From positions 2,945,001 to 3,009,000 of the forward strand of contig CP067346.1 of the NCBI GenBank assembly GCA_021561035.1: DNA of 64,000 nt, written 5' to 3'. The notes below the pieces were generated by a model. That model made no database searches and was not told the origin of the DNA. It saw nothing but the letters and a program-made list of their open reading frames with translations. The DNA is from Clostridioides sp. ES-S-0054-01. Its GTDB lineage: Bacteria; Bacillota; Clostridia; Peptostreptococcales; Peptostreptococcaceae. Each line of letters starts with the position of its first letter. The stretch's first letter is position 1. Position numbers and translations under genes: made by a program. Shown one piece after another: positions 7,844 through 60,224 of this stretch.

Positions 7844-9386
<1,543 letters not shown>

Positions 9387-9691: not shown

Positions 9692-10882
9692 ATGATATCT
9701 AATAAAATGCAAACTTTAGTTGCAAACAGTTCTGTTATAAGAGCTATGTTTGAAGAAGGAAAGAAACTTTCTGATATTTATGGAGAGGAAAATGTTTTTG
9801 ATTTCAGTATAGGAAATCCAAGTGTTGAACCTCCAGAGACTATTAAAGCAGTTATAAATGATATTTTAAATGAAGAATCTCCAAATTTAGTTCATGGATA
9901 TATGAATAACTCAGGATATGAGGATGTAAGAAATGCTATTGCTGAACACATAAATAAAAAAAATGGATTAAATCTTACAAGAGAAAACTTAATTATGACT
10001 TGTGGTGCTGCTGGTGGTCTAAATATTATTTTAAAAACTCTTTTAAATCCTGATGATGAAGTTATTGCTTTTGCACCGTATTTTGGTGAGTATAAAAACT
10101 ATACAGAAAACTATGATGGAAAATTAATAGAAGTTCCTACAAATATAGAAACTTTTGAACCAGATTTAGATGCTCTAAAAAATGCCATTACTTCAAAGAC
10201 AAGAGCTTTAATAATAAACACTCCAAATAATCCTACTGGTGTTATATATTCTGAAGAATTATTAAAAAACCTTGGAGAACTATTAGACTCAAAACAAAAA
10301 GAATTAAATACAAATATATATTTAATTTCTGATGAACCATATAGAGAAATAATTTATGATGGTGCCAAAGTTCCTTGCGTACTAAAATACTATAGAAACT
10401 CATTTATAGGATACTCTTATAGTAAATCATTATCTCTACCTGGTGAACGTATAGGATATATTGTTGCTAATGGACAAATGGATGATTTTGACGATGTTAT
10501 GTCTTCGTTAAATGTTGCAAATAGAATACTTGGATTTGTAAACGCTCCTTCTCTTTTTCAAAGAGTTATTGCAAGAAGTTTAGATGCTGAAGTCGATGTA
10601 AGCATTTATAAAAAGAATTTTGACCTCCTATATAATAGTTTAATCGAAATGGGATATTCTTGTGTTAAGCCTAGTGGTACATTCTATCTATTCCCAAAAT
10701 CTCCAATTGAAGACGATAAAAAATTCTGCAATGATGCAAAACAATTTAATTTATTATTAGTACCAGGTTCTTCTTTTGGTTGTCCAGGTCATTTTAGAGT
10801 GTCATATTGTGTATCTTATGACAAAGTTAAAAGTTCTTTACCGTCATTTGAAAAATTAGCTAAACTTTATAATTTAAAATAA
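9692..10882 (+). CDS. PLP-dependent aminotransferase, class I/II
   Basis: 396 residues of the aspartate aminotransferase fold. NTPNNPTGVIYS, SDEPYREIIYDG and SYSKSLSLPGERIGY are the cofactor-binding stretches; the lysine of SKSLS is the Schiff-base residue and the later Arg in FRVSYCVS binds the substrate carboxylate. The reaction is transfer of an amino group between an amino acid and a 2-oxo acid; the specific amino acid cannot be read. The ATG at 9692 is preceded by AAAAGGAG, and the in-frame GTG at 9683 lies in that site. A strong terminator follows, so it is probably monocistronic. Confidence 0.85.
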   Translation: MISNKMQTLVANSSVIRAMFEEGKKLSDIYGEENVFDFSIGNPSVEPPETIKAVINDILNEESPNLVHGYMNNSGYEDVRNAIAEHINKKNGLNLTRENLIMTCGAAGGLNIILKTLLNPDDEVIAFAPYFGEYKNYTENYDGKLIEVPTNIETFEPDLDALKNAITSKTRALIINTPNNPTGVIYSEELLKNLGELLDSKQKELNTNIYLISDEPYREIIYDGAKVPCVLKYYRNSFIGYSYSKSLSLPGERIGYIVANGQMDDFDDVMSSLNVANRILGFVNAPSLFQRVIARSLDAEVDVSIYKKNFDLLYNSLIEMGYSCVKPSGTFYLFPKSPIEDDKKFCNDAKQFNLLLVPGSSFGCPGHFRVSYCVSYDKVKSSLPSFEKLAKLYNLK

Positions 10883-14290: not shown

Positions 14291-14374
14291 CTTTTCGGCA
14301 ACTGGCTGGCATGGTTTATTAAACTTTAGCCCCTATAGCTTTGCGTCACTAGGTTTCCCTAGTTTTGCCTCATT
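14291..14374 (-). promoter_or_regulatory. c-di-GMP type I (GEMM) riboswitch upstream of zmp1
   Basis: On the minus strand the aptamer shows the GEMM landmarks in order: GGCAAAAC, the GGGAAACC tetraloop stem, GTGACGCAAAGC, GGGGCTAAAG, and finally GCCAGCCAGTTGCC closing the receptor side. It is followed by an intrinsic terminator (14244-14265) and then zmp1. The known C. difficile switch at this gene reduces transcription when c-di-GMP rises, which favours attachment over release. Confidence 0.93.
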
Positions 14375-14474
14375 TAATTTTATATCTACATTATAGCTTA
14401 CATCTCCTTAATTGTCTATGGGGTATTGGAATTTTTTTCTAAGAAGTTATTATTTTTTTACATAAATACACCAA

Positions 14475-15082: not shown

Positions 15083-15190
15083 AAAAAAAGCCATGAAAAT
15101 AAATAAATTTATATTCATAGCCGGTTGCACCACTGACTCAGTATATCCATAAGGTGCCCAATAATAGAATATACTTCAACATCTCTATAA
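15083..15190 (-). promoter_or_regulatory. c-di-GMP type II riboswitch with terminator, upstream of the short adhesin
   Basis: Minus strand. TTGGGCACCT, a hairpin with ACTGAGTCAGT, then GTGGTGCAACCGGC match the c-di-GMP-II core; compare the well-known GGGCAC...GTGCAACCG pairing. The 3' part GGCTATGAATAT also pairs with ATTTTCATGGC, which is followed by seven T (15083-15122). Aptamer and terminator therefore compete, and ligand binding should prevent termination (ON switch). Together with the OFF switch at zmp1 this gives opposite control of adhesin and protease. Confidence 0.88.
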
Positions 15191-15320
15191 TATTTCATAA
15201 AAAACAATTAAAATTGTTATATTCATATTAAATATAATTATATATTTCTATTATATTATGCATTTATACTCTTGTCTATATTTTTTACATTTTTTACCTT
15301 ATTAAAATATTAATTAATCA

Positions 15321-45963: not shown

Positions 45964-46113
45964 TTACTCTTTTTGAATGCTGTATTCAAGCAAGTACCTA
46001 CCACCAAGCTCATTTTTTTCTACAATTACAACATTTAACCCAAGTTGAGCCGTTCGAATTGCTGAAACATACCCTACTGGTTCACCACCAATTACTATTA
46101 AATCAGTGTTCAT
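45964..46113 (-). pseudogene. N-terminal remnant of dihydrolipoamide dehydrogenase (E3)
   Basis: A 49-codon frame with a good ribosome site (AAAGGAGG) reads [20 protein letters not shown], followed by [18 protein letters not shown]. This is the FAD-binding N-terminus of lipoamide dehydrogenase (normally IGGGPGGYVAAIRAAQLG...). The dinucleotide motif is damaged (GGEPVG), the redox disulphide segment is replaced by [11 protein letters not shown] and the remaining 400 residues are gone. It is the last gene of the E1/E2 cluster, where a complete operon would carry E3. The complex must therefore use an E3 from elsewhere. The short protein could still be translated. Confidence 0.85.
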
Positions 46114-46173
46114 TTTCACTATTCCTCCTTTTAAGTCATAGACATTAATACATCTATAACTAAAATTTTGCTA

Positions 46174-47181
46174 TCAATACTTATATTCTGTTAAATCTAC
46201 TTGATTTTTTATATTATAATGAATCTTTTGACGTGTAAAAATAAAATTATTTCTATGAATTCCTATTGCCAATAAGTCTGAATGTGGATGTTCTAAATGA
46301 CTGTAAGCTATTGTACAACCGGGAGTCATCCTTCCACCTACAAATACCATAGAATAGTTTATAAAATATTCATCCAATAACTTACTTTTTATTAAGTGTG
46401 TACAATATGAAGGAGATTCTACACACACTTTTTCTATTCCTAAATTTTTAAGCACATAAAGCAATACCTCAGAATCTGGTGTACTATCTTTTCCAGTGAC
46501 AATTACAGGAAAAACATCAAAATCTTTATATAATTCTTCAAATGTATAATCATCAACATCCTCAATTGAACTAAAATTTCCTATACATATATGTTCTAAA
46601 GGTGAGTTTTCTTTTATATACTCCCAACCATTTGGAGATGTAGCTATAACCATTTTGTATTCTTGGCTTTTATCAACCTTAAATGTATAGTGATTAAATG
46701 GAATATCTGTAGCATCAAAAGAAACCACTACTCCACATGGTTGATATTTTTTATTTAAATAATCTTTTCTTTGTTGTGTTAGACTTTCATCAAATACATG
46801 ACATGTTATTCCAGGTTCATTTTGAAGAGTTCTAGCTCCGATAATCACAGCATCTGAACATGCTCTTAACACATTTAAAACCCAAAAATCTGCTAGGGCA
46901 CCATCTGGGTCTATAAAATTATTTTTCCCAATTAAAGGTCCTGCCTTATTATCTTCATATGCCATCTTTCCATCTGAAGATAACACCATAGATGAAAATG
47001 TGTATGGTCTTTTTTCACCTGCTTGTGGAAAGAATAACTCTGTATAATACTCTACAACATCTGGTATACATATATCTTCATTTGACTTTGCTTTTATCGT
47101 ACCTAATACTTTTTCATTTCTATTTAACACATCTATTTTTAAATTCTCTCTTGGTATACTAAAAAATTCAAGATTATTCAT
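46174..47181 (-). CDS. RibD C-terminal/DHFR-like pterin or pyrimidine reductase
   Basis: 335 residues. From about 60 the protein follows the RibD-C plan: RPYTFSSMVLSSDGKMAYED, then WVLNVLRACSDAVIIGARTL and the C-terminal EKVCVESPSYCTHLIKSKLLDEYFINYS. No deaminase domain is present, so this is a stand-alone NADPH-dependent reductase of the type that reduces ribosylaminopyrimidines or pterins (dihydromethanopterin reductases are of related fold). The usual G-G-G-x-x-L active motif before the end is altered to VESPSYC. An extra N-terminal 50 residues are unassigned. ATG 47181 is chosen over GTG 47235 inside the upstream gene. It lies 26 bases after the deaminase gene. Confidence 0.75.
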   Translation of the reverse strand: MNNLEFFSIPRENLKIDVLNRNEKVLGTIKAKSNEDICIPDVVEYYTELFFPQAGEKRPYTFSSMVLSSDGKMAYEDNKAGPLIGKNNFIDPDGALADFWVLNVLRACSDAVIIGARTLQNEPGITCHVFDESLTQQRKDYLNKKYQPCGVVVSFDATDIPFNHYTFKVDKSQEYKMVIATSPNGWEYIKENSPLEHICIGNFSSIEDVDDYTFEELYKDFDVFPVIVTGKDSTPDSEVLLYVLKNLGIEKVCVESPSYCTHLIKSKLLDEYFINYSMVFVGGRMTPGCTIAYSHLEHPHSDLLAIGIHRNNFIFTRQKIHYNIKNQVDLTEYKY

Positions 47182-47207
47182 ACTCTTACCATCCTCTCTT
47201 AATTGTT

Positions 47208-48605
47208 TTACAATCCATAAATTCTTTTTCCCCACTGTACATTTCCTAGACCAACATCATCTATTAATTTACTTGAGATTTGTTGAGTTTTATATAATAT
47301 TTTTTCTTCATCTATAGTTGTTATCTGACTATTCTCCATAATCACTTTTCCATCTATAATAGAAGTTTCTATATTATTTGGAGTGGATGAATATATTAGT
47401 GAACTAATCGGGTCGTGAATTGGTATGGAAATTGCACTTTGATATGGATTATAAACCACAATATCAGCGTTTTTTCCTACCTCTATTGAACCTAGTGAGT
47501 CTAATTTATTTATAGATTTTGCTCCTCCTAAAGTTGCCATTTCAAGTACACTTGATGAAGGTAAAAGTTTCGCATCTCTATGAGTAACCTTTTGTAATAA
47601 TGTAGTCATCTTCATTACCTCTAACATATTTTGAGTATCATTACTAGCTGAACCATCACATGCTAAACTTATAGTTAAGCCCTCTTTTATAAATCTTGGA
47701 ATTGGAGCCACTCCTGCTGCTAGAACCATATTAGATATAGGGTTATGTGATATTTTAACATCATACTTTTTAAATAACTCTATGTCTTCATCTAACATGT
47801 GTATACAATGAACTGCGATAAAATCAGAACCTAAAATCCCCATCTTTTCAAGATATGGTACAGTTCTCATACCTCTATCACCTAAACAGTATTTATCATC
47901 ATCTTCAGTTTCAAGTAAATGCATTGTTATTGGGATATTAAGTTCATCAGCTATCTTTCTTATCTCTTTATAACCATCTTCTGTGTTATCCCATATAATT
48001 CCGGGTGCCAATGCCAGACTGATTCTTGAATGGTTTTTATATTTTTTATCCAATCTTCTAACATCATCAAAGAATTTTTGTTCTGTATCATGATAAGTGC
48101 AACCAAATTCCTCGGGAAATTTACTTGTATCTGTAAATCCTCTGCCAAGTATTCCTCTTATTCCCAAGTCTTCAAATCCTTGAATTATACTATCATCAAG
48201 CCCTTCTTTTCCATGACAATACATATAGTCTAGTATAGTAGTTGTACCTGTTTTAATTGCTTCTATACACCCTGTTAATGCTGCATAGTAACAACATTCT
48301 TCATCTATCTTATGTATAGCTCTTCTAACAGAACTATCAAGCCAGTCTAACAACAATTTATCCCTTCCTAACCCCTTTAATAACGTCTGAAATAGATGAG
48401 AATGAGTACTTATGAACCCAGGAAAAACAAATTTTCCTCTAGCGTCTATAGTTTTTTCTGAAATGTATTTTTCTAGTAAATTAGATTTTCCTATGTCAAT
48501 TATCTTGCTATTTTCAATTATTATACAAGCATCATTTAATATTTCCCTCTCAGTATTCATTGAAATTATATAAGCGTTTTTAATTATCAAATCTACGTTT
48601 CTCAT
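47208..48605 (-). CDS. Amidohydrolase-superfamily deaminase (COG0402, 8-oxoguanine/isoxanthopterin deaminase-like)
   Basis: 465 residues. The metal and active-site motifs appear in order: FISTHSHLFQTLLKGLGRD, then MHLLETEDD, AVHCIHMLDEDIELF, KISHNPISNMVLAAGVAPIP and ACDGSASNDTQNMLEVMK. The DGSASND form is common among aminohydrolases that act on 8-oxoguanine, isoxanthopterin and s-triazines, so the reaction is probably loss of an exocyclic amino group from a purine- or pterin-like ring. The start at 48605 follows GGAGG. It is flanked by the E2 gene upstream (with a 14-base inverted repeat between) and the RibD-like reductase downstream. Exact substrate unknown. Confidence 0.8.
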   Translation of the reverse strand: MRNVDLIIKNAYIISMNTEREILNDACIIIENSKIIDIGKSNLLEKYISEKTIDARGKFVFPGFISTHSHLFQTLLKGLGRDKLLLDWLDSSVRRAIHKIDEECCYYAALTGCIEAIKTGTTTILDYMYCHGKEGLDDSIIQGFEDLGIRGILGRGFTDTSKFPEEFGCTYHDTEQKFFDDVRRLDKKYKNHSRISLALAPGIIWDNTEDGYKEIRKIADELNIPITMHLLETEDDDKYCLGDRGMRTVPYLEKMGILGSDFIAVHCIHMLDEDIELFKKYDVKISHNPISNMVLAAGVAPIPRFIKEGLTISLACDGSASNDTQNMLEVMKMTTLLQKVTHRDAKLLPSSSVLEMATLGGAKSINKLDSLGSIEVGKNADIVVYNPYQSAISIPIHDPISSLIYSSTPNNIETSIIDGKVIMENSQITTIDEEKILYKTQQISSKLIDDVGLGNVQWGKRIYGL

Positions 48606-48644
48606 ACAGCAACCTCCATATAATTTTCTGCCATACTTTAATTT

Positions 48645-48702
48645 TGACAGATAGTTTGGAGAGAAAAAATCTTTCGAGAAACGCATAACAAACTATCTGT
48701 CA
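48645..48702. promoter_or_regulatory. Perfect 14-base inverted repeat between the E2 and deaminase genes
   Basis: TGACAGATAGTTTG (48645-48658) and CAAACTATCTGTCA (48689-48702) are exact complements separated by 30 bases. No T run follows on the minus strand, so it is not a classical terminator. As RNA it would form a stable stem between two cistrons, for processing or partial termination; as DNA it could be an operator. Confidence 0.6.
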
Positions 48703-48728
48703 GATTACTATTTTGCTATAAAAATATT

Positions 48729-49997
48729 TTACATCCATCTAAAATCTAAAAGATTTTGAGTAACTTCTTGAAGAAAACGCGCACCAGGGGCTCCATCTAT
48801 CACTCTATGGTCATGAGTCAAACTCATATTCATTATAGAACCAGCATAAAATGCACCATCTTTTACAAGAACTTTTTCTATTATACTTCCAATACCTAAA
48901 ATGGCACTTTCTGGTGTATTTAATACTGGAGTAAAATATGTTATTCCAAACATGCCTAAATTAGTTATAGTAATAGTTCCATTGCTCATTTCATCCGGGT
49001 TTAACTGATTACTCTTAGCTCTTTCACTTAAATCACTCAACTCTATGCATATTGTTCTTAAATCTTTTAAATTTGCATTCTTTATTACAGGTACTACTAA
49101 TCCATTTGAAATGTCTACAGCTACACCTACATTAATTTCATCATTTATTTTAAAATGATTTTCATCAAATACTTGTGTTCTAAGTTTAGGATGATTTTCA
49201 AGTGCTTGGGCTACAGCTTTTATTATAAGAGCTGTATAACTCAATTTAACACTTACATTTTTATACTTTTCTTTTAGACTCTTATATACTTTAGTTAGAT
49301 TTGTAATTTCTAATTCAGTAGTAATCGTAGTTTGAGCTGTTGTCAATAAACTTTCATGCATTTTTTTCGCTATTACATTTTGCATTTGAGTCATTTTAAT
49401 TACTACATCATTTTCCCCTATAGTTGTCTTAGTACTCTTAGTTTGAGGAATAGATATAGCATCTTGCCGTACTCCTTTTTCATCCACTTTAATTTGATTA
49501 GTTTCAATGACCTTTTCTTCTAGATTTTTATTCATGAAATTTTTTAAGTCATCAATTGTTATTGCTCCATGTATTCCTGTACCCTCTATATTTGAGTAGT
49601 TAATTCCTTTCTCTTCAGCTATTTTTTTAGCTCTTGGAGTTATTTTCTTATCTACTGCCAATTTTTTTGCTTCTGTTGTCTGCTCTAAGATTAAAGTATC
49701 TTCTTCTTCTTTTTCCATATCTGTTTTAACTGTTGGGTTAAGTCCACTAATATCTTCATCTGCATCTGCAATTATACAAATTGTCTCCCCACAATTAGCA
49801 ACATCACCCTCTTCAAACAGTATCTTTCTCAGTACTCCACTTTCTGTTGCTTCAACAGTATTGGTTATCTTATCAGTTTCAACCTCTAAAATTTCATCCC
49901 CTTTATTTACAATGTCACCTTCTTCAATCAACCATGTACCAATTGTTCCATCTTCCATAGAAAGACCAAATTTTGGCATTTTAACTTCTATAATCAT
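48729..49997 (-). CDS. 2-oxo acid dehydrogenase E2 (dihydrolipoamide acyltransferase)
   Basis: 422 residues. Lipoyl domain at 1-76 with the lipoylated lysine in VETDKITNTVEA, a peripheral-subunit-binding domain at about 120-155 (ITPRAKKIAEEKGINYSNIE, GTGIHGAITIDDL), and the catalytic domain with the active His/Asp in LTHDHRVIDGAPGARFLQE. It passes the acyl group from E1 to CoA. Intact E3-binding residues imply that an E3 is still used although the local E3 gene is a remnant. The gene follows E1beta by 17 bases. Confidence 0.92.
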   Translation of the reverse strand: MIIEVKMPKFGLSMEDGTIGTWLIEEGDIVNKGDEILEVETDKITNTVEATESGVLRKILFEEGDVANCGETICIIADADEDISGLNPTVKTDMEKEEEDTLILEQTTEAKKLAVDKKITPRAKKIAEEKGINYSNIEGTGIHGAITIDDLKNFMNKNLEEKVIETNQIKVDEKGVRQDAISIPQTKSTKTTIGENDVVIKMTQMQNVIAKKMHESLLTTAQTTITTELEITNLTKVYKSLKEKYKNVSVKLSYTALIIKAVAQALENHPKLRTQVFDENHFKINDEINVGVAVDISNGLVVPVIKNANLKDLRTICIELSDLSERAKSNQLNPDEMSNGTITITNLGMFGITYFTPVLNTPESAILGIGSIIEKVLVKDGAFYAGSIMNMSLTHDHRVIDGAPGARFLQEVTQNLLDFRWM

Positions 49998-50014
49998 GAC
50001 TTCTCCTCCCTTGA

Positions 50015-50992
50015 TTAATATTGCATAACTTCTCTACAAGCTCTAATTAGATTTTCCAATTTTGGCAAAACAAAGTCTTCTAAAACCGGTGCATATGCTA
50101 CTGGAGCATCAATTGATGTAACTCTTTTTATAGGTGCACTTAGATACTCAAATACATCTTCATTTATCATGGCAGATATTTCAGCTGCCCATCCTCCTAC
50201 TCTTGGTCCTTCTTGAGCAATAACCAATCTGCTAGTTTTAGCTACTGATTCCACTATAGTTTTTTTATCATAAGGAAAAACAGTTCTAAGGTCGATTATC
50301 TCTACATTAATTCCTTCTTTTTCAAGTTCAGTTGCTGTTTTATGTGCCAAGCCTAACATCATTTGAGTAGCTACTATAGTAACATCACTACCAATTCTCT
50401 CAATTTCAGCTTCATATAAAGGAATCTCATATGGTTCAACTGGTACTTCACCTTTAACGTTATATAGCATTTTATGTTCCAGAAATAATACTGGATTATC
50501 GTTCTTTATAGCTGAAAGTAGCATTCCCTTAGCTTCATAAGGTGTTGTTGGTGAAACTACTACAAGCCCTGGAGTATTCATAAACCATGATTCTGCACAA
50601 ACTGAATGATGATATGCACAACGTATACCAGCCCCCTGTACAGCACGAACAGTAATTGGACAATGTGCTTTCCCCTGAAACATAAAATTAAGTTTTGCTG
50701 CATTATTTACAAGTTGGTCAAAACAAACACCTAAAAAGTCTGCAAACATTATCTCAGGTACGGGTCTTAGTCCACAAAGAGCCGCTCCATTTGATAGTCC
50801 TAATATAGCTGACTCCGATAAGGCTGTATCCTTGATTCTATTTGGCCATTTAGCCATTATTCCCTTGGTAATACCAAAATCTCCACCCATTTTAGCGACA
50901 TCTTCACCTAATATAAAAACTCTGTCATCATTTTCCATAGCTTGATGAAGTGCTTCATTTATTGCCATTCCATACGAAAGTTTTCTTCCCAT
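50015..50992 (-). CDS. 2-oxo acid dehydrogenase E1 beta subunit
   Basis: 325 residues. Transketolase-like pyrimidine domain (YGMAINEALHQAMENDDRVF, ILGEDVAKMGGDFGIT) plus C-terminal transketolase domain (DVTIVATQMMLGLAHKTATE). Typical features are AIVGLSNGAAL-like and RAVQGAGIRCAYHHSVCAES (the catalytic His region). It binds TPP with the alpha subunit. It resembles the pyruvate/acetoin dehydrogenase type. The start codon overlaps the alpha-subunit stop, so the two are translationally coupled. Confidence 0.92.
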   Translation of the reverse strand: MGRKLSYGMAINEALHQAMENDDRVFILGEDVAKMGGDFGITKGIMAKWPNRIKDTALSESAILGLSNGAALCGLRPVPEIMFADFLGVCFDQLVNNAAKLNFMFQGKAHCPITVRAVQGAGIRCAYHHSVCAESWFMNTPGLVVVSPTTPYEAKGMLLSAIKNDNPVLFLEHKMLYNVKGEVPVEPYEIPLYEAEIERIGSDVTIVATQMMLGLAHKTATELEKEGINVEIIDLRTVFPYDKKTIVESVAKTSRLVIAQEGPRVGGWAAEISAMINEDVFEYLSAPIKRVTSIDAPVAYAPVLEDFVLPKLENLIRACREVMQY

Positions 50993-51972
50993 TATCTTAT
51001 TTCCACCTTTCTATCAACATATGTGTGTGTAACTGCATCCTTAATATCTGGTGATGGACTCTCCAATGAGAATCTTAACATTTCTTGAACATCATCCTCT
51101 ATCTCTTCTTCAATCTGCTTAAGTACATCGTCTGACATACCTTCTCTCTCAATAAGTATTTTTCTAGTTAATTTTATTGGGTCTCTGTCTTTCCAGTACT
51201 TAACTTCTTCTTCAGGTCTATATGCTGCTGGGTCCCCTGCAAAATGACCTTGCCAACGATAGGTAAGAAACTCTATTAATGTTGGACCTTCACCTTTTCT
51301 TGCTCTATCTGCTGCTTTTTCTACTATCTCAATTACTGCTTCTACATCATTACCATCTACTCTGTAACTTGGAATTTCATATCCCTCACCCCACGTTTTT
51401 AGCTCTTTTTGAGGGTGAGAATCTGTGTAGTGTGTAGATATAGCATACTGATTATTAAGTAAACAGTATATGATTGGTAGTTTCCATGTGGCTGACATGT
51501 TAAGGCTTTCATGACAAGTACCTTCTCCCAAAGTTCCATCACCTAAAAATACTGCTGTAACATCATCAGTTTCTTTATATACGGATGCAAAAGCTGTGCC
51601 TAGGCAAGTTACCATCGTAGAGCCTTGTATTCCATTGAATCCCATATTTCTACATCCAATATCATTTATATGCATTGAACCGCCTCTACCACCATTTATA
51701 CCTGTAGCTTTAGCAAATATTTCAGCCATTACAAGTTTTGGGTCGGTTCCACAAAGTGCAATAGTCCCATGTCCTCTATGGTCTGGAAATTTATAATCTG
51801 TTTTTCTAAGTGCATCTACTATACCTGCTTGACAAGCCTCCTGACCTATACTTAAATGTACAAATCCTGGTATAGTTCCATTTGCCGCATACTCTTCTAT
51901 TACTTCTTCAAATCTTCGAATCATAACCATATCACGATATAATTTTTCTAATCTTGTTTTATCTAATACCAT
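50992..51972 (-). CDS. 2-oxo acid dehydrogenase E1 alpha subunit
   Basis: 326 residues. The TPP motif is GDGTLGEGTCHESLNMSATW to NNQYAISTH. GFVHLSIGQEACQAGIV and FPDHRGHGTIALCG, GGRGGSMHI are the substrate-side signatures, and the phosphorylation-loop-like YRWQGHFAGDP follows. It decarboxylates a 2-oxo acid (or cleaves acetoin). Which 2-oxo acid cannot be read, but the context with an Mch homologue and a deaminase is unlike known acetoin or branched-chain operons. GGGGGG precedes the ATG, 36 bases after the Mch-like stop. Confidence 0.92.
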   Translation of the reverse strand: MVLDKTRLEKLYRDMVMIRRFEEVIEEYAANGTIPGFVHLSIGQEACQAGIVDALRKTDYKFPDHRGHGTIALCGTDPKLVMAEIFAKATGINGGRGGSMHINDIGCRNMGFNGIQGSTMVTCLGTAFASVYKETDDVTAVFLGDGTLGEGTCHESLNMSATWKLPIIYCLLNNQYAISTHYTDSHPQKELKTWGEGYEIPSYRVDGNDVEAVIEIVEKAADRARKGEGPTLIEFLTYRWQGHFAGDPAAYRPEEEVKYWKDRDPIKLTRKILIEREGMSDDVLKQIEEEIEDDVQEMLRFSLESPSPDIKDAVTHTYVDRKVEIR

Positions 51973-52008
51973 TTTGTATCCCCCCTAAATTAATAGAATT
52001 TAAATCAT

Positions 52009-52968
52009 TTATTTTAAGAAACTTCTTTCAAGAGCTGAATAATTTATCTCTCCTGATGAAAATGATTTGCCAGTATTTATATTGTGTATCTGTATTTTTC
52101 CAATTGAATGTACATCATGGTCTACATAGAAAAAATCTCTTCCTGCTTTTTCAAACACATCCTCAAATAGCTCTCCATAATTTGGAGATGAAGTTTTTCC
52201 TGCTAATTGATGTATAGTCTTTGCAATAGCAGTGTCAGTTGAATCTACCCAAAACTCAGTTTCACTACCATAAATTAATGCATCATTTATTCTTCCCATA
52301 GTCTTAATTTCATCTTTTACTATTGGTGCTATTGGCGCTTTTCCTCTTGCAAGTACGATTTGACCTGCATCAAAGTTTTTTTCAAACATTTTATGACATA
52401 CTTGCTCAATGATTCTTGCTGATACTTGCATTGATGCTACGATACATGTACTGGGGGAAATCAATATATATGTGTCTTCTGGTTTTACTCTACAAGCATT
52501 TGCGATTTCTAAAATAGTTTTTTCGTCAGGGTATTTTACATCTTGAATGCATAAGACTGCCTCATGATAATCATCTTTGTACGGAGTCATTTCAAAATAC
52601 CAATCTGATTCAACCCTTGCTAAAGCTCTTGCTGGACCTGACCCTATAGTTGCAAACTCACCTTCTCCAAGTTTCCATCCAGCAATCTGTGAACCCATAC
52701 ATGCAATTAATGGCTTATCTATGAATACTTCAACAGCTGAAAAAGAATATTCATCATTTAATTTAAAATCACCCAATGTTACTATTCCTAAATCACCTAT
52801 AGAAGCTCTAGTAAATAAAATCCCTGCTTTCCAGCTTCCACTACAATTTAGACCCATATCAATTATAGTTGCTCCACAAGCTTTCTTAATAACTTCGCAT
52901 CCTAATGATTCTGCATCTTCCAGTATTTCTCTTACTACCATCATTGCCTTTTTATTTAAACTTATCAT
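52009..52968 (-). CDS. Homologue of methenyl-tetrahydromethanopterin cyclohydrolase (Mch)
   Basis: 319 residues, the full family length. It aligns from end to end with the archaeal enzyme as I remember it: MISLNKKAM at the start, TIIDMGLNCSGSWKAGILF, GSGPARALA (109-117), DEKTILEIANACRVKPEDTY, SARIIE (183-188), APIAPIVKDE (211-220), GRINDALIYG (225-234) and TGKSFSSGEINYSALERSF at the end. The Arg185 and Glu188 of SARIIE occupy the places of the catalytic Arg/Glu pair reported for the archaeal enzyme. Mch opens the methenyl ring of a C1-pterin carrier (methenyl- to formyl-). C. difficile uses folate, so the true substrate is probably another pterin or purine-like compound. The ATG at 52968 fits family starts; the TTG at 52983 overlaps the ribosome site. 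Confidence 0.88.
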   Translation of the reverse strand: MISLNKKAMMVVREILEDAESLGCEVIKKACGATIIDMGLNCSGSWKAGILFTRASIGDLGIVTLGDFKLNDEYSFSAVEVFIDKPLIACMGSQIAGWKLGEGEFATIGSGPARALARVESDWYFEMTPYKDDYHEAVLCIQDVKYPDEKTILEIANACRVKPEDTYILISPSTCIVASMQVSARIIEQVCHKMFEKNFDAGQIVLARGKAPIAPIVKDEIKTMGRINDALIYGSETEFWVDSTDTAIAKTIHQLAGKTSSPNYGELFEDVFEKAGRDFFYVDHDVHSIGKIQIHNINTGKSFSSGEINYSALERSFLK

Positions 52969-53171
52969 TTTTATACCTCTCAATATATTTTATTTATGCC
53001 TTTTTTCCACAGACATCAATTCCATCCAAAGATTTTCATTCCTTTCTTGATACAGTCCATCTACAAAATTTAATTATATATATCTCTACGAAATTAAAAT
53101 TTTAATTACTTTATCTGTATTATTTAAGCTCTTTTTTAACTATTTTTCATACAAAATCTTCTAATTTATTA

Positions 53172-53421
53172 CTAAAAAAGAGGAGCAAGGCGCTCCTCTT
53201 GGATATCCTTTCAGATTATACTTTTATTAAAATGAGTATCATATCTTTTGATTATTCAAATTTTTAAGGTTTTTGGGTAAAAAAAATAGAAGCAAGGCGC
53301 TCCTTCTTGGATATCCTTTCAGATTGTATTATAAGCTATTAGGTTTCCTTCAAAGTTCAATCCTATTTTTGGTAAAAAAAATAGAAGCAAGGCGCTCCTT
53401 TCTGGATATCCTTTAGAATTA
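53172..53421 (-). terminator. Three tandem terminator-like repeats between permease and Mch-like genes
   Basis: Three copies of a roughly 47-base unit at about 53172-53220, 53277-53330 and 53372-53421 (spacing 107 and 95 bases). On the minus strand each has GGATATCC, then AGGAGCGCCTTGCT(C/T)CT and a T run; copy one is a perfect eight-pair stem (AGAGGAGC/GCTCCTCT) with TTTTTT, copies two and three are weaker. All face the transcript leaving the permease. They may make permease-to-Mch read-through conditional. Confidence 0.75.
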
Positions 53422-53427
53422 CGTTCT

Positions 53428-54753
53428 CTAAGCTTTACAACTTACTTTACTTTCAATTACTTCTTCCTTTTCCTTAGGCAATATGATATTTAGTATCAAA
53501 GATAATAAAGCTGTTCCAGATATACCAGTCATTAAAGTGACTACTATACTTGGTAAAAATGCTAATGCAGCTTGATTAAAATAACCACCCATACCAATTC
53601 CCAATGAAACTGCTAAAATTGTTATATTACGATTTGTCATTTTCCCCATTCCAATAACCTTAATACCCGATGATGCAATTGTTCCAAACATCATAACCAA
53701 TGTCCCTCCAATTACTGGGTCTGGTGTTAAAGCTAATATCTGAGCAAACTTTGGGAAAAATGCTAAAATACCTAATATCACTCCTCCAAGTGCTACTATG
53801 TACCTACTTGCAACACCTGTCATACATATTATCCCTATGTTTGGGCTACCTGATATAACTGGAAGTCCATTGAATAAAGCTGCAAAACAACTTCCAACTC
53901 CATCTGCTCTTACGGCTCTCATCAACTCTTTTTGTGTAGGTAACCGATTCTCAACAGAGCTTACAACGCCTGTCGTATCTCCTATTATCTCCATAACCGT
54001 CACAATATGAATTGTACATATGGTTACAATAGCCCCTAAGTTGAATTCCAATCCCCAGTATATAGGTTTTGGCATTGAAAACCAATTTGCTTGTGTCATA
54101 CTAGAAAAATCAACCATACCAAATATTACTGCTACCACATACCCTATCACTATTGAAATTATTATGGATGCCACCTTTAGAAAACCTTTTCCGAATTGAT
54201 TTAAAATGAGTGTCAACAACAATGTAAATACAGCTAAAGAAAAATTAGCAACTACATCAGGGCTATGGACATCAAATGATATTGCATAGTCAAATGAAGA
54301 ACTCATAAGTGATAACCCTACTGCTAAAACAACACTTCCTGTAACTGTAGGTGTAAAATATTTATGCAAATATTTTACTGCAAATGGTCCTACTAAAGTT
54401 AAAACTAAACTTCCTACAAGCACTGCTCCAAAAGCTCCAGCAATGCCAACATCATTATTTGTACTTAAGGCAATTAACGGTGCTACAAAGGTGAAACTTC
54501 CACCAGTAACAATTGGCAACCGTGACCCTACTGGTCCAATCCCCATAGATTGCAGTATGGTGCTCACTCCTGCAATCAGCATTGAACACTGAATCAAAAA
54601 TGCAGTCTCACTTAGTGAGAGACCCATGCCAACAGCTACTAAAATAGCACCAGACATAGTACCCGCAAAAGCAGAAAAAACATGTTGCATACTAAGCGGT
54701 ATTGCTGTTAGAAACTTTGGCTTGTCGTTAAATCCATACTTGTAATTTTCCAT
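53428..54753 (-). CDS. NCS2-family nucleobase (xanthine/uracil-type) permease
   Basis: 441 residues, fourteen-helix NCS2 architecture. LSMQHVFSAFAGTMSGAI at the start, MEIIGDTTGVVSSVENRLPT and NGLPVISGSPNIGIICMTG, then PDPVIGGTLVMMFGTIASSG are the conserved family segments. It imports purine or pyrimidine bases, or related rings, by proton symport. It stands at the head of the Mch-like/E1/E2/deaminase cluster on the same strand and has a long leader with complementary segments. Those facts suggest that the permease imports the cluster's heterocyclic substrate. AAGGGG precedes the ATG at 54753. Confidence 0.88.
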   Translation of the reverse strand: MENYKYGFNDKPKFLTAIPLSMQHVFSAFAGTMSGAILVAVGMGLSLSETAFLIQCSMLIAGVSTILQSMGIGPVGSRLPIVTGGSFTFVAPLIALSTNNDVGIAGAFGAVLVGSLVLTLVGPFAVKYLHKYFTPTVTGSVVLAVGLSLMSSSFDYAISFDVHSPDVVANFSLAVFTLLLTLILNQFGKGFLKVASIIISIVIGYVVAVIFGMVDFSSMTQANWFSMPKPIYWGLEFNLGAIVTICTIHIVTVMEIIGDTTGVVSSVENRLPTQKELMRAVRADGVGSCFAALFNGLPVISGSPNIGIICMTGVASRYIVALGGVILGILAFFPKFAQILALTPDPVIGGTLVMMFGTIASSGIKVIGMGKMTNRNITILAVSLGIGMGGYFNQAALAFLPSIVVTLMTGISGTALLSLILNIILPKEKEEVIESKVSCKA

Positions 54754-54763
54754 ATCTTACCCC

Positions 54764-54925
54764 TTATCGCTCCCGCCATTGCCGCCAAATGTATGGAGCT
54801 ATGTAATAAATTATTAGTAACCTTAAAAGTTAGAGCCTAATAAATATTGCACAGTTAAATTATGAAGTTTTAGTAATACATTTTGAAATTAGAAAAGCTC
54901 TAATTTAAGGAGTGGCGGAGGATTA
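54764..54925 (-). promoter_or_regulatory. Possible structured leader of the NCS2 permease gene
   Basis: On the minus strand CTCCGCCA (about 54913-54920) can pair with TGGCGGGAG (about 54771-54779) with one bulged base, enclosing some 130 bases. A hairpin AAATTAGA-GCTTT-TCTAATTT and an unpaired AT-rich centre lie inside. The downstream arm sits just before the ribosome site. These GC-rich arms stand out in an AT-rich region. I recognise no known riboswitch; purine-type core sequences are absent. Whether it is a regulatory RNA is untested. Confidence 0.4.
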
Positions 54926-54989
54926 CTTACTAAAAAAATAAAACGTTTGCTTTTGGCATTATTTTTATTTTTTGTAGACTAGGTAATTA

Positions 54990-55720
54990 ATCCGATTTTT
55001 AATTGTATTATACAGTCACGATTTTAGAATGTCAAGATTATTCTGACAATTTAATTTTAATTTTATTTGGATTTTTTAAAATAAAAATAATACTTATTTT
55101 GTAGAATAAAGTCAGCATTAAAATTCTTTAATTCTTAAATTTATGTTATTTTTTTATCGTTACTATTTGACTTTATAATATATAAACAAATATTTTATAT
55201 ATATAAAGCTATTTTTGTATATTTTATTCCTACAACAAATATAGTGTACAATACTCCTATAGATTGCTTTTATCATTTTTTGCGTAGATAAATTATATCA
55301 ACTCATATGTAGAAAGCTACTTAATTTAACTATTTAGAATAATTCTTCAATAAATAATTGTTATACACACAATAAAGACTAAATTTAACATATACTAACA
55401 GCTAATAAATACATATTTAAAGACATAATCATATGCTATATTATTTTAATATATACAACAAAATCTCAATTATATTTTATGATTTATCAATCTTAAAATA
55501 TATAAATTATCTCTTTAAGAATTTTTAATACTACTTGTTATAATTTTATCTTTTTTATTTATACAAAATCTTTTTTCAAACAATACAATTATTTATTTAT
55601 CCAATTTTTCTACATAATTTAAGGATTAAAAATCTTAATTTTTTCAATATAAAATATAAATATTTTTTGTGTTTTTTTATATACATGTTCCCTATTATTA
55701 AAATAAATTAAACTTTATTA
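54990..55720. other. AT-rich intergenic stretch without recognisable content
   Basis: About 730 bases of extremely AT-rich DNA between the permease leader and the deacylase terminator. There is no plausible coding frame, repeat or RNA hairpin. It must hold the promoter of the permease operon; I could not single out boxes with confidence. An AAACGTTTGC sequence at about 54941-54950 faintly recalls a CcpA site. Confidence 0.4.
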
Positions 55721-55827: not shown

Positions 55828-57429
55828 TTATCTTTTTAATACCACTCCATATTGATTCTCAGTAACTTCTCCCTCTTCTAATGCAATTTTTCCATTTACA
55901 ATTACATATTCAACACCTTTAGCTAATAATTGTGGCTTTGAGAAATCAATATCTTCTGACCTAGGATAACTATAATTATCCATATCAATAATTGCTATAT
56001 CAGCTATAAACCCTTCTTTAAGAACACCTCTATTTTTTATTTTAAACTGCCTAGCTGGTAATGAAGTGACTCTTCTTACAATTTCTTCTAGTCTAACATC
56101 TGACTTTCTGTACATGTTGAAGAAAATTGGAAAAGCTCCTCTTCTTTGGAGTTCAAACCATGACATATCTCCACCCACACTAAACAAACAATCTGAACCA
56201 ACCATAACAAATGGATTATCAATTATTTTATCATCATGCAATTTGTCTGGGAAATCGGCTCTATACATTCCACCTAGACAAAAGATAAGCTCTTCATCTC
56301 CATCTAAAAGTAAATCGAGTAATAACTTGTCCTCATCCATACCTTTTTGTATAGCTATTTCACGTATTGATTTCTTTTCCATATCAATATCCTTAGTGTT
56401 TAGAAGTATTATACTGCCTCTATCTCCAAGTATAAATGCCTCTTTTAATATAAGTGCTCTTCCCTCTTCATTTCTAAGAGCATCCATTACTCCATCTATA
56501 CCTAATTCAAATAGACTAGATGATATCGCCATAATAAATTGAATCACTCTTTTCTTCTTCATACAATGCCCAGAACTTCTTGGCACTGTATCAACCATTA
56601 TATCAACACCATTGTATCTAGCTTTTAATATCTCATCAAAAGCTTCTATTTCAACTGGACTTAAATGTGATACTTGAACTCTAGCACCACTTTCTTCCCC
56701 AACCTCTATAGTTTCTTTTACTGCGTTATATCTTCCTATGTAATCTCTAATATGAGATGTATATATACCATCATATTCTTTAATTAACTTTGCAATATCA
56801 ACAAGTTCATCAATATCAGCATACTTACTTGGTATATATGCCAATCCAGTAGATATTCCAAAAGCACCACTTTTCATACCATCATTTATTATATTTGTAA
56901 TTTCATTTTTTTCTTCTTCTGTAGGCGGTCTATCTTTAGACCCCCCCATAACACTCCATCTTATAGTACCATGCCCTAGTAAAAATCCCATATTAATAGA
57001 AATACCACTTTTAGATATAAGGTCACAATATTCTGTAAAATTATTCCAATATTTATTTTTATCTATAAGATGCTTTTTTTCTTCTTCAAGTAATAAGCCA
57101 TTTTTATACATATATTCATATATATTTTCAGAAGAATATGGTGTTATAGAATGCCCACAGTTACCATTTATAGTTGTTGTAACTCCTTGTTTTAGAAACT
57201 TTTCAAATTTACCATCTAGTATTGCTACTATTTCTTCATGAACATGAGGGTCAATAAATCCAGGTGTTATAACTTTTCCACAACAATCAATCTCTTTATT
57301 TGTATTGCTATTTATCTTAGAATCTATTTTTGCTATTAAGTTGTCTTTAATTGCTATATCTCCATAAAAACCAGGATTACCTATACCATCTATTATAAAT
57401 CCATTTTTTAAGATTAAATCATATATCAA
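55828..57429 (-). CDS. N-acyl-D-amino-acid deacylase (D-aminoacylase)
   Basis: 533 residues, amidohydrolase superfamily. ILKNGFIIDGIGNPGFYGDIAI opens the beta-sandwich, FIDPHVHEEIVAI holds the metal ligands, GNCGHSITP gives the bridging Cys region, and GAFGISTGLAYIPSKYADID and YTSHIRDYIGRY match D-aminoacylases. The C-terminal VGSDCLFS replaces the usual GSDG form. It releases D-amino acids from N-acyl derivatives. Last gene of the operon driven by the sigma-54 promoter at 60225-60240, together with a dipeptidase and two membrane proteins. Confidence 0.85.
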   Translation of the reverse strand: MIYDLILKNGFIIDGIGNPGFYGDIAIKDNLIAKIDSKINSNTNKEIDCCGKVITPGFIDPHVHEEIVAILDGKFEKFLKQGVTTTINGNCGHSITPYSSENIYEYMYKNGLLLEEEKKHLIDKNKYWNNFTEYCDLISKSGISINMGFLLGHGTIRWSVMGGSKDRPPTEEEKNEITNIINDGMKSGAFGISTGLAYIPSKYADIDELVDIAKLIKEYDGIYTSHIRDYIGRYNAVKETIEVGEESGARVQVSHLSPVEIEAFDEILKARYNGVDIMVDTVPRSSGHCMKKKRVIQFIMAISSSLFELGIDGVMDALRNEEGRALILKEAFILGDRGSIILLNTKDIDMEKKSIREIAIQKGMDEDKLLLDLLLDGDEELIFCLGGMYRADFPDKLHDDKIIDNPFVMVGSDCLFSVGGDMSWFELQRRGAFPIFFNMYRKSDVRLEEIVRRVTSLPARQFKIKNRGVLKEGFIADIAIIDMDNYSYPRSEDIDFSKPQLLAKGVEYVIVNGKIALEEGEVTENQYGVVLKR

Positions 57430-57539
57430 AATATTTCCTCCTTAAAAACCAATTTTTAAATAATCTTAATGTAATTTTTATATTTGAAAATCAAATTATT
57501 ATATTTCATATTTGAAAATTCACTATTATTTCATTGTAA

Positions 57540-58217
57540 TTAGTCACTAAGCTTATCTTTATACATAATTCTTGCAATTAATATAGTACCAAATACACAT
57601 ATAAGAACCACTAAAGACTGAGGTATTATACCTTGCTTTGACAATATAATAGTCAATACAGATATTACAATTGCTACTAGACCCAATTTTTTATCTTGCA
57701 AAAATACTTGCCCAAAGACTGACCCAAATAGAGCTGGTAAAATTAAATTTAATTTTTCCACTACTTCAGCTGGAATCTTAGATAATACGCTTCCTCCTAG
57801 AACCACTCCTATAGTTAATATACTTATATTTACTAAAATAGATACAGCTATCCCTATTGTAGATATTATTGAACCTTCTTCTGTACCTGATTCAACTTCT
57901 GCTGCCTTTTGAGCTGCTATTGAACAGGGTAGCCTCATATTAGATATATTACCAGAAAGAAAACTCATATAAGTTCCTGGTATGCCTAAAATCGGCGAAT
58001 AAGAAACTGGTTCTATTATGTAATTTGGGGCACTCATACTGACAATTGCCATTGTACTCGCTAACAATGCTGATATTGGAGGCATAAGACCAAATCCAAA
58101 GCTCAAAATTATTCCAGGAACTAATGCTGCTATAATACCCAAAGATAATGTCAATCTTCCATACCTTATCATAAAAGGTAAATATTCTTCATTGTATATA
58201 GATTTTACTTTACTCAT
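57540..58217 (-). CDS. Membrane transport protein, partner of the 58230-58925 protein
   Basis: 225 residues, about six membrane helices. GIIAALVPGIILSFGFGLMPP and IEPVSYSPILGIPGTYMSFL, NISNMRLPCSIAAQKAAEVE are distinctive and recall small solute-transport subunits with Pro-Gly-rich re-entrant parts. It starts 12 bases after its partner, which belongs to another small membrane family, so together they probably form one importer. Position between a dipeptidase and a D-aminoacylase gene suggests peptides or acyl-amino acids as cargo. A direct repeat TATTTGAAAAT lies in the 110-base gap after it. Confidence 0.6.
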   Translation of the reverse strand: MSKVKSIYNEEYLPFMIRYGRLTLSLGIIAALVPGIILSFGFGLMPPISALLASTMAIVSMSAPNYIIEPVSYSPILGIPGTYMSFLSGNISNMRLPCSIAAQKAAEVESGTEEGSIISTIGIAVSILVNISILTIGVVLGGSVLSKIPAEVVEKLNLILPALFGSVFGQVFLQDKKLGLVAIVISVLTIILSKQGIIPQSLVVLICVFGTILIARIMYKDKLSD

Positions 58218-58229
58218 AAAACTCCCTCC

Positions 58230-58925
58230 TTATATTACTGAAGCTATTATCATCCCACTAAACATTGATATTGTAAGCCCCCACTCTCTTAACCATTTTA
58301 TATTTTTCTTCTTTTCAAGCATGCATAATATTGTCATTATAGCCATCCCACTTATACATGCGATTGTCCCATTATCAAAACGCAACACCCTATCAGCATT
58401 TAAATATGCAAATGAACCTAGCATAGCTCCTAAAGATATTATTGGTATAAATGATTTATTTCCACTAGATATAACATTAGTTATCTTATCTAGTTTATGT
58501 CCAAATAGTAATGTGAATACTATCCATCCTAAAGAACCCAGTATCATAGTCCAAACCGCATTTGTAAATGCAAGTTTTGTCATTTCAGGAGAACCTAAAG
58601 TTATACCTAATGCATCTGTTCCAAATCCAGCTGACATAGATTCAAAAATTACAGAACCTATAAACGATAATCTCATCCATGCTATAGGTCCACCCATAGT
58701 AACTATAAGCGATACCATTCCAGCAAATATAGTCATTGAAGGTCCTATAGCTGAAATAGCACTACTTTTGACAGCTGACTTTATTTGTTTATCTGTTATT
58801 CCCATTGTTTTACCAACTTTACAAGATTTTATAGCAAATATAAGCGACTGTACTACTACTATTGATACTGCTACTGTACTTGCTATCCACAAGAGTGGGT
58901 GATTAGCTAATTTTAAATAATCCAT
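58230..58925 (-). CDS. DUF5058-like membrane protein
   Basis: 231 residues with six or so membrane helices. The segment AIKSCKVGKTMGITDKQIKS followed by SSAISAIGPSMTIFAGMVSL, and GGPIAWMRLSFIGSVIFE, correspond to the DUF5058 family as I remember it. No enzymatic motif is visible. Together with the next gene it forms a two-subunit transporter candidate. It follows the dipeptidase gene after 55 bases with a clear GGAGG-type site. Confidence 0.65.
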   Translation of the reverse strand: MDYLKLANHPLLWIASTVAVSIVVVQSLIFAIKSCKVGKTMGITDKQIKSAVKSSAISAIGPSMTIFAGMVSLIVTMGGPIAWMRLSFIGSVIFESMSAGFGTDALGITLGSPEMTKLAFTNAVWTMILGSLGWIVFTLLFGHKLDKITNVISSGNKSFIPIISLGAMLGSFAYLNADRVLRFDNGTIACISGMAIMTILCMLEKKKNIKWLREWGLTISMFSGMIIASVI

Positions 58926-58980
58926 TTATAAAACCTCCCTATAAATCCTCAAATTTTATTAATACTTCTACTCTATTTAC

Positions 58981-60180
58981 TTATTTCCATACCTGCTTTA
59001 ATACTCTAAGTATATTTCCACCTAGTACCTTTTCTATTTCCTCATCACTATACCCATGTTTTACTAAATATCTAACAATATTTTTTGAAGTCTCCGTTGG
59101 ATTCTCAAGACCTTTTACATATTCTACTTTGGGATGTTCTTTTGTACCTGTTATCTTTTTTATATCAAATTTAGCAGCTAGTACTGAGTGTAATTTTACA
59201 TGGTCACCATATATTGTATCTGGTCCAAAAGCCACATGGTCTATTCCTACTAAATTTTTAATATACTCAAAATGCTCCATAAATGACTCTATTGAATGTT
59301 CTTTATTTTTTTCAGTTATTGTAGTATGAGGTGCTGCTTCTACACCTATAACCCCTCCTTTTTTAGCACATGCTATTAGCACTTCGTCTGGAGTTAGTCT
59401 CTTTGTATCCCATAAACTCCTTGTACCAACATGGCTTAATATTATAGGGTCATTACTATATTCTATAACATCAAGTGTAGTTTGTACTCCAACATGAGAA
59501 CAATCTATTGCCATTCCAATCTTATTCATTCTTTCTACAGCTTTTCTACCAAAATTTGTAAGACCTCCATCTTTTTCTTCCTTTAGTCCTGAACCTAATG
59601 CATTAGATTCACTGTATGTGATACCCATCATTCTTATACCAAATCCATATAGTATATCTATTCTATCAAGCTCATTCTCTATTGGTGCCGCCCCTTCTAG
59701 TGTGGGTATTAATGCCACTTTACCTTCACTTTTAGCTCTGTATATATCTTCCACTTTTTCACATTTTATAACAAAATCTTGATGCGCTAAATCACATAGC
59801 CTCATACCTAAATCTATTAATATATCATCCCATTTCCATCCTGAATTTGATGTGATTGTACATACACCATCCATTAAATTATCAAATATAGCATCATAAT
59901 ATCCTCTTGATAGTGCTTCATAAGCGCATCTTTGTTTACCCTCTCTATTGTATTCAAATATATCTCTTTCCAAGTGTTCTGGAAATAAGACTGGATGTTC
60001 ATGTAATGATATAAATATTTTGTCCTCCACTATACTTTTAACCTTCGCTTCTTGAACATCATCTAACTCAATAAGGTACTCTTTAACTCTCTTATCTCCT
60101 TTACACATCTCAATAGATGAGATATCTTTTCCTTTTTCCAGATAACTATATGCTTCATATCCTTTATAAGCTGACTTCAT
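58981..60180 (-). CDS. Membrane dipeptidase family (M19) peptidase
   Basis: 399 residues of the M19 family (renal dipeptidase-like), which hydrolyse dipeptides including those with a C-terminal D-residue. HEHPVLFPE (in place of the usual HxDxP), EGAAPIENELDRIDILYGFG, MGITYSESNALGSG, GMAIDCSHVGVQTTLDVIE, PIILSHVGTRSLW, and DHVAFGPDTIYG are recognisable. The first metal motif is altered (HEHP rather than HNDLP-type), which is worth attention. The start at 60180 follows GGAGG. It is the first gene behind the sigma-54 promoter. Confidence 0.82.
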   Translation of the reverse strand: MKSAYKGYEAYSYLEKGKDISSIEMCKGDKRVKEYLIELDDVQEAKVKSIVEDKIFISLHEHPVLFPEHLERDIFEYNREGKQRCAYEALSRGYYDAIFDNLMDGVCTITSNSGWKWDDILIDLGMRLCDLAHQDFVIKCEKVEDIYRAKSEGKVALIPTLEGAAPIENELDRIDILYGFGIRMMGITYSESNALGSGLKEEKDGGLTNFGRKAVERMNKIGMAIDCSHVGVQTTLDVIEYSNDPIILSHVGTRSLWDTKRLTPDEVLIACAKKGGVIGVEAAPHTTITEKNKEHSIESFMEHFEYIKNLVGIDHVAFGPDTIYGDHVKLHSVLAAKFDIKKITGTKEHPKVEYVKGLENPTETSKNIVRYLVKHGYSDEEIEKVLGGNILRVLKQVWK

Positions 60181-60224
60181 AACAACATCCTCCAAGTTCT
60201 ACAATTTTTTATATTTTCCTATAT

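Follow-up and report, generated by a model that had tools for sequence, protein, structure and literature searches.

A minus-strand gene cluster containing a homologue of Mch, the methenyl-tetrahydromethanopterin (methenyl-H4MPT) cyclohydrolase, was analysed in a stretch of 64,000 nucleotides from Clostridioides sp. ES-S-0054-01 (contig CP067346.1, positions 2,945,001 to 3,009,000; hereafter the window). The cluster encodes an NCS2 permease, the Mch homologue, the E1-alpha, E1-beta and E2 components of a 2-oxo acid dehydrogenase-type complex, a COG0402-type deaminase and a RibD-like protein, and I consider it rather likely to be what erosion has left of a catabolic cluster, conserved among clostridia, that acts on a bicyclic N-heterocycle of the pterin or purine type. 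The protein families, the gene order and its conservation, the clade of the Mch homologue with its residue switch, and the deletion in the window copy are all established here. An earlier note, made from the sequence alone, had described the same one-strand neighbours and suggested a pathway for such a heterocycle; profile searches agree with the families that it named, although for the RibD-like protein the match is weak.

A separate clade of Mch homologues

The window Mch (319 amino acids) covers positions 1–311 of the 311 in the PF02289 profile, with a score of 328.9 bits against a cut-off of 25. It also exceeds the cut-off of the NCBIfam equivalog TIGR03120 (297.4 against 228.8 bits), and four distinct solved Mch sequences align with it end to end, with E-values from 1.2e-58 to 2e-67. 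This bears out the claim of the earlier note that the gene is homologous to Mch over its whole length and retains the Arg/Glu pair. It is the single PF02289 match in the whole 3.93 Mb genome, and three C. difficile Mch proteins are 96–97% identical to it.

A tree of 52 Mch proteins, 3 from solved structures and 49 from loci (6 of the 55 locus proteins, shorter than 280 amino acids, were dropped), separates 38 rows, hereafter clade II, from 14 canonical rows with a support of 100/100. The window protein belongs to subclade A of clade II, and thus stands outside the clade of archaeal and one-carbon (C1) operon Mch. Eight further Mch from plasmid records (7 proteobacterial and 1 haloarchaeal) all group with the canonical set, bringing it to 22 rows.

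Mch is a homotrimer, and 44 positions are invariant in 12 canonical sequences. Among these, Arg183 and Glu186, which I take to be the catalytic residues, are also invariant across the four subclades and 38 rows of clade II, and Gln93 is kept in subclade A. Columns were counted as diagnostic when one residue made up 90% or more of the canonical set and was absent from clade II; three were found (Glu140, Pro277 and Phe280). Residue 140 is Gln in 38/38 clade II rows and Glu in 22/22 canonical rows, 8 of which were added afterwards; residue 280 is His in 33 and Asp in 5 clade II rows, and Phe in 90% or more of the canonical set and in all 8 added sequences. Pro277 was discarded as a diagnostic column, since three of the 8 added sequences have no Pro there. 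At these key positions the window protein has Gln142, Arg185, Glu188 and His287.

The full-length homology and the retained Arg183, Glu186 and Gln93 are shared with archaeal and methylotroph Mch (PF02289 / TIGR03120), but the window type forms its own clade in which Gln140 and His280 replace Glu and Phe, its host has no match to the methanopterin markers tested, and its neighbours are not C1-pathway genes. The model for beta-RFAP synthase (TIGR00144) has 0 matches in this genome, while as a control it matches in 4 of 14 genomes; the Ftr model (TIGR03119) likewise has 0, and among 26 Mch-bearing genomes it matches in 14, in 10 of them over its cut-off. Both results agree with the statement in the earlier note that the host has no methanopterin. 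Neighbouring genes were tabulated by tblastn for the window and 42 loci, leaving out four fragmentary loci (L035, L041, L043, L044) and five Ftr-like loci; Ftr is found at 0 of the 32 clade II loci against 9 of the 11 canonical-clade loci. Two canonical-clade rows, L050 and L062, have no Ftr in the stretch examined.

It is therefore extremely improbable that the window protein is a genuine methenyl-H4MPT cyclohydrolase, as its curated name and TIGR03120 score would have it: the separate clade, the residue switch, the absence of Ftr from clade II loci and the lack of beta-RFAP synthase and Ftr matches in the genome all argue against this, and a canonical methanopterin pathway in the host was rejected on the marker profiles and the clade. 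Because of the clade, the switch and the missing markers, the TIGR03120 name is probably wrong about the substrate. Judged from its sequence, the Mch-like protein is probably not a methanopterin enzyme, but the member of a separate clade in which the catalytic residues are unchanged and Glu140 is uniformly replaced by Gln. The TIGR03120 rule names a methanopterin enzyme for a protein whose clade sits in heterocycle-type clusters, and so misleads metabolic reconstruction of gut Clostridia; a C1-cofactor enzyme family has apparently been recruited to another use.

Mch matches were also found in 36 plasmid records, all at less than 60% identity, with 25 listed at 30–34%. Eight of these records were examined: four carry H4MPT-type operons with beta-RFAP synthase, three have no gene table, and one carries a haloarchaeal Mch gene with no C1 genes within 5 kb.

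A conserved neighbourhood, eroded in the window

PF02289 matches are present in 26 of 398 Bacillota genomes. Relatives of the window Mch occur in 6 of 8 Clostridioides genomes and in none of the remaining 63 of the family's 71 genomes. Across the class, 2 of 391 genomes have such a relative, both of them Clostridioides, and in one small class it is present in 8 of 10 genomes. Ten loci came from a scan of named genomes: three in C. difficile, three in Pseudoflavonifractor, one in a Clostridium sp. and three in metagenome-assembled genomes.

The neighbours recur across these lineages. At the 32 clade II loci, E1-alpha and E1-beta are each found 22 times, E2 21, the COG0402 protein 21, a short-chain dehydrogenase/reductase (SDR) 20, the RibD-like protein 14, E3 (lipoamide dehydrogenase) 13, NCS2 10 and a BMP-type transporter protein 9 times. 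The 11 canonical-clade loci have COG0402 once, BMP once and E1 in none (Fisher p 0.0015 for COG0402 between the two sets, in which the loci are not independent). Within subclade A, E1 is present in 21 of 22 loci and 9 of 10 lineages, the SDR in 20 loci and 9 lineages, the deaminase in 16 loci and 7 lineages, and the RibD-like gene in 14 loci and 7 lineages. Some of the absences may reflect the ends of contigs or of the stretches examined. The earlier note had named as support a repeated association of Mch with the deaminase, the RibD-like gene, E1/E2 and the permease beyond this species, which is what these counts show, and a chance neighbourhood was rejected on the same recurrence.

The same enzyme families also occur in other settings. 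At L036, L038 and L039 a clade II Mch is found with FAD oxidoreductase, Amidohydro_2 and ECF transporter genes, and at L038 and L039 a Pterin_bind protein directly precedes it; as a side reading, these gene sets would represent a different pathway using the same enzyme family. At the Ftr-like loci (L075 to L079), divergent Ftr homologues scoring 84–144 bits (cut-off 292.6) adjoin COG0402 deaminases and Zn-type alcohol dehydrogenases, and four of the five loci also have FGGY-type kinase, DeoC/LacD-type aldolase and ECF transporter genes. This is an apparent second recruitment of a methanogenic C1 enzyme.

Comparison with sister loci revealed that the window copy is incomplete. In five Clostridioides loci (L065, L066, L067, L086 and L087) the order is NCS2, XdhC, XdhA, SDR, Mch, E1-alpha, E1-beta, E2, COG0402, RibD-like, E3 and a TIGR03792 protein, followed in all but L066 by a second NCS2-like gene at the end of the cluster. 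Three genes are thus missing between permease and Mch, a loss that is not visible in the window alone. XdhC, XdhA, the SDR and the TIGR03792 protein of the sister loci have no match in the window, and the sisters' second NCS2 matches only the window's first, at 31%. By blastn, the region around the scar aligns to three separate parts of L065: 6010–6395 (94.8%), 8109–8149 (90%) and 9942–10008 (97%). Since these correspond to the upstream flank of xdhC, a piece of xdhA and the SDR gene's 3' end, I conclude that the window strain lost xdhC, xdhA and the SDR gene by deletion.

The E3 match in the window is confined to residues 1–43 of 468. The left end of the cluster at 45964, as given in the earlier note, is the end of this lipoamide dehydrogenase stub. 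Two more E3 genes score over the cut-off elsewhere in the genome, and these other lipoamide dehydrogenases could supply E3. Gene starts placed at the longest open reading frame (ORF) also had to be revised, as relatives put the start of the deaminase gene at 48605 and that of the RibD-like gene at 47181.

The remaining genes appear constrained. The ratios of replacement to silent substitution rates (dN/dS) to L065 are 0.055 for Mch, 0.036 for E1-alpha, 0.038 for E1-beta, 0.086 for COG0402, 0.180 for the RibD-like gene and 0.217 for E2. Relaxed selection on the window branch was not seen overall, as its replacement/silent counts resemble those of the L065 branch (Mch 3/13 vs 3/12; E2 8/16 vs 9/10; RibD-like 7/11 vs 8/9; COG0402 12/22 vs 8/20). 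This constraint implies that the loss is recent or that the remnant is still functional in some way. With xdhC, xdhA and the SDR gene absent and E3 reduced to a stub, the full route probably does not run in the window strain unless other genes substitute. The heterocycle pathway of the earlier note is thus supported in part, by the recurrent gene set, but in this strain, with its eroded copy, it may not operate.

Proposed route and candidate substrates

The gene set would suit a route that dismantles, step by step, a bicyclic N-heterocycle bearing a carbon side chain. I infer the substrate, the order of steps and the ring opening from the protein families. The compound would enter through the NCS2 permease in the window, and at related loci through BMP-type ABC or ECF-type transporters. 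Where the cluster is intact, a molybdenum hydroxylase would oxidise the ring, the COG0402 enzyme would remove an amino group, and the RibD-like protein would reduce the ring. The Mch-like enzyme could then add water across a cyclic C=N bond and open a ring, and the SDR and E1/E2/E3 would convert a side chain, or else a 2-oxo or acyloin fragment left by the opening, to an acyl-CoA.

Several observations weigh against this proposal. Its substrate is read from family membership, and the nearest solved relatives point to different substrates: those of the SDR are hydroxyacyl-CoA dehydrogenase and FabG, that of E1-alpha is pyruvate dehydrogenase, and that of XdhA is 4-hydroxybenzoyl-CoA reductase. 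A tie between residue 140 and the substrate is itself presumed. Several subclade A loci are without the deaminase or the RibD-like gene in the stretch examined (see the counts above), constraint is lower on E2 and the RibD-like gene than on the other genes, and replacement changes in the deaminase are more numerous on the window branch than on that of L065.

The substrate could be a pterin with a hydroxylated side chain, of the biopterin, neopterin or monapterin type, although this more specific form of the proposal is less likely than not. The hydroxylase (Xdh) and the COG0402 enzyme would here give a 7-oxo-lumazine, Mch would act on the deaminated, reduced ring, the SDR would oxidise the side-chain diol, and E1/E2/E3 would cleave the product to an acyl-CoA. 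Canonical Mch binds a reduced pterin, to which a switch from Glu140 to Gln would add a fit to a 2-oxo ring; Pterin_bind proteins occur in 5 of the 32 clade II loci (as the immediate neighbour of Mch in L038 and L039, several genes away in the three others), and the divergent Ftr homologues adjoin COG0402 in 5/5 loci. A precedent for the sequence of enzymes comes from insects, where xanthine dehydrogenase and then isoxanthopterin deaminase act on pterins (PMC11121863). The deaminase of the window is nonetheless nearest to a solved 8-oxoguanine deaminase (7ww2, 208.8 bits), with chain 2paj, presumably an isoxanthopterin deaminase, at 119.2 bits, and sepiapterin reductase is not the nearest relative of the SDR among the best 60 of its 129 matches.

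The relationship to 8-oxoguanine deaminase would suit the breakdown of a purine base, with Xdh producing an 8-oxopurine, the COG0402 enzyme deaminating this product, and Mch opening either the imidazole or the pyrimidine ring. The best NCBIfam model for the permease is that of xanthine permease (TIGR03173 pbuX, 355.8, under its cut-off of 414.15), and XdhA scores 635.7 bits with the xanthine dehydrogenase models, under the cut-off of 780. A purine has no carbon side chain, however, which would leave the SDR and E1/E2/E3 unexplained, as well as the Pterin_bind and Ftr-like associations, and I judge a purine substrate unlikely. Gut purine/urate degradation clusters resemble the present one in having a COG0402 enzyme, an Xdh-type hydroxylase and an NCS2 permease; to my knowledge they contain no Mch, E1/E2 or RibD-like gene. 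The Mch homologue could also be a folate enzyme, an alternative that the earlier note had named, hydrolysing methenyl- or formimino-tetrahydrofolate and so handling a one-carbon unit from heterocycle breakdown, which often releases such units. The unchanged catalytic residues and the methenyl-pterin nature of the canonical substrate agree with this, but separate Mch paralogues coexist within a genome or operon (as many as four full-length copies in one stretch of G076), suggesting different substrates, and I regard this role as quite unlikely.

A broader idea, which I consider doubtful, is that free pteridines are broken down anaerobically in Bacillota by a pathway not yet described, where Mch, and elsewhere the divergent Ftr, have been turned from cofactor chemistry to the breakdown of deaminated pteridines. 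The Glu to Gln replacement would then mark where a 2-amino ring gave way to a 2-oxo ring, and a dedicated dehydrogenase complex would harvest the side chain as acyl-CoA.

Returning to the catabolic cluster as such, no account of one like it was found among the papers listed in searches of the open literature; most subscription papers lie outside that search, which makes this weak evidence of novelty. Should pterins or purines prove to be its substrates, the cluster would represent an added sink for nutrients and cofactors in gut bacteria. The substrate question is directly testable with purified proteins.

Feature map, regulatory elements and flanking genes

Features of the cluster, with positions in the window
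Feature	Position	Strand	Basis
Promoter-like site, TTGACA-17-TATAAT	55007..55035	-	12/12 consensus matches
5' leader of permease gene, candidate regulatory RNA (riboswitch or attenuator)	54754..55000	-	near-identical in six Clostridioides loci
NCS2 family nucleobase permease	53428..54753	-	PF00860 269 bits; TIGR00801 300.9, over cut-off 291.8
Three tandem 40-nucleotide terminator-like elements	53375-53414, 53280-53319, 53173-53212 (span 53173..53414)	-	candidate small regulatory RNA
Deletion scar, 41 nucleotides like inside of xdhA	53020..53060	-	between xdhC upstream flank and SDR gene 3' end
Mch-family cyclohydrolase homologue, clade II subclade A	52009..52968	-	profile, tree, residue alignment
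E1-alpha, thiamine pyrophosphate 2-oxo acid or acetoin dehydrogenase type	50992..51972	-	PF00676 260.8 bits
E1-beta	50015..50992	-	PF02779 and PF02780; NF006667 subfamily 323.9, over 321
E2, lipoyl, E3-binding and catalytic domains	48729..49997	-	PF00364, PF02817, PF00198
COG0402-type aminohydrolase (deaminase)	47208..48605	-	PF01979 209.2 bits
RibD/DHFR-fold reductase-like protein	46174..47181	-	PF01872 31.9 bits, cut-off 24.1 (weak)
E3 (lipoamide dehydrogenase) gene stub	45964..46119	-	81% identity to residues 1-43 of 468-residue E3 of L065

The deaminase shares its fold family and metal-site residues with the COG0402 aminohydrolases (the group of 8-oxoguanine deaminase, MTA/SAH deaminase and atrazine chlorohydrolase), but reaches the cut-off of none of the best 25 of 60 NCBIfam models. 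The metal site of COG0402 deaminases consists of HxH, His, His and Asp plus a Glu, and residues H95, H97, H256, E259, H293 and D344 (numbering of the 492-amino-acid ORF) are invariant in 25/25 aligned rows, two of the 27 having been dropped as shorter than 380 amino acids. For the RibD-like protein 12 homologues were aligned; its nearest solved sequence is 5xv0 (E 1.4e-5), and it is under the cut-offs of TIGR00227, TIGR01508 and NF010663. The dehydrogenase has the E1-alpha, E1-beta and E2 of 2-oxo acid and acetoin dehydrogenase complexes, including the lipoyl and E3-binding domains, and differs from these in its own operon context, its E3 stub and an E1-alpha that falls under the pyruvate dehydrogenase cut-offs (TIGR03182 and TIGR03181).

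The promoter-like site is a consensus match only, as 66 weaker-or-equal sites were found against 54.0 expected; both hexamers are kept in six aligned Clostridioides loci. A leader core, CATACATT.GGC.G.AATGGCGGGAG, recurs in L072 and L073, two distant clostridial loci, and is not in L069 and L071. The three tandem elements are among eight terminator-like sites found (2.7 expected). The same three copies are present in L065, L066, L067, L086 and L087, and a single copy follows the permease gene in L072 and L073. In an alignment of 16 of 20 elements, the stretches AGGATATCCA and GGAGCGCCTTGC are invariant, while the flanking stem is variable. Folded alone, copies 1 and 2 are no better than shuffled sequences (z -0.75 and -0.48), whereas copy 3 (z -2.82) and the copies of L072 (-6.28) and L073 (-5.45) are better. 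The scar adjoins the repeats at 53164-53414, and their origin as deletion scars was rejected because relatives retaining xdhC carry the same three copies. A known riboswitch was also rejected, since neither leader nor repeats match Rfam above the gathering score (five matches at E up to 10 fall far short). Exact matches to the leader and repeat patterns in viral contigs numbered 0 and 0.

Upstream on the same strand, positions 55828-60195 (-) encode an Amidohydro_3 protein, two small putative membrane proteins and an M19 dipeptidase, and the matches of L065, L086 and L087 extend through this region. Elsewhere in the window, c-di-GMP-I and c-di-GMP-II riboswitch aptamers are located at 14294-14379 (-) and 15110-15195 (-) respectively, about 730 bases apart.

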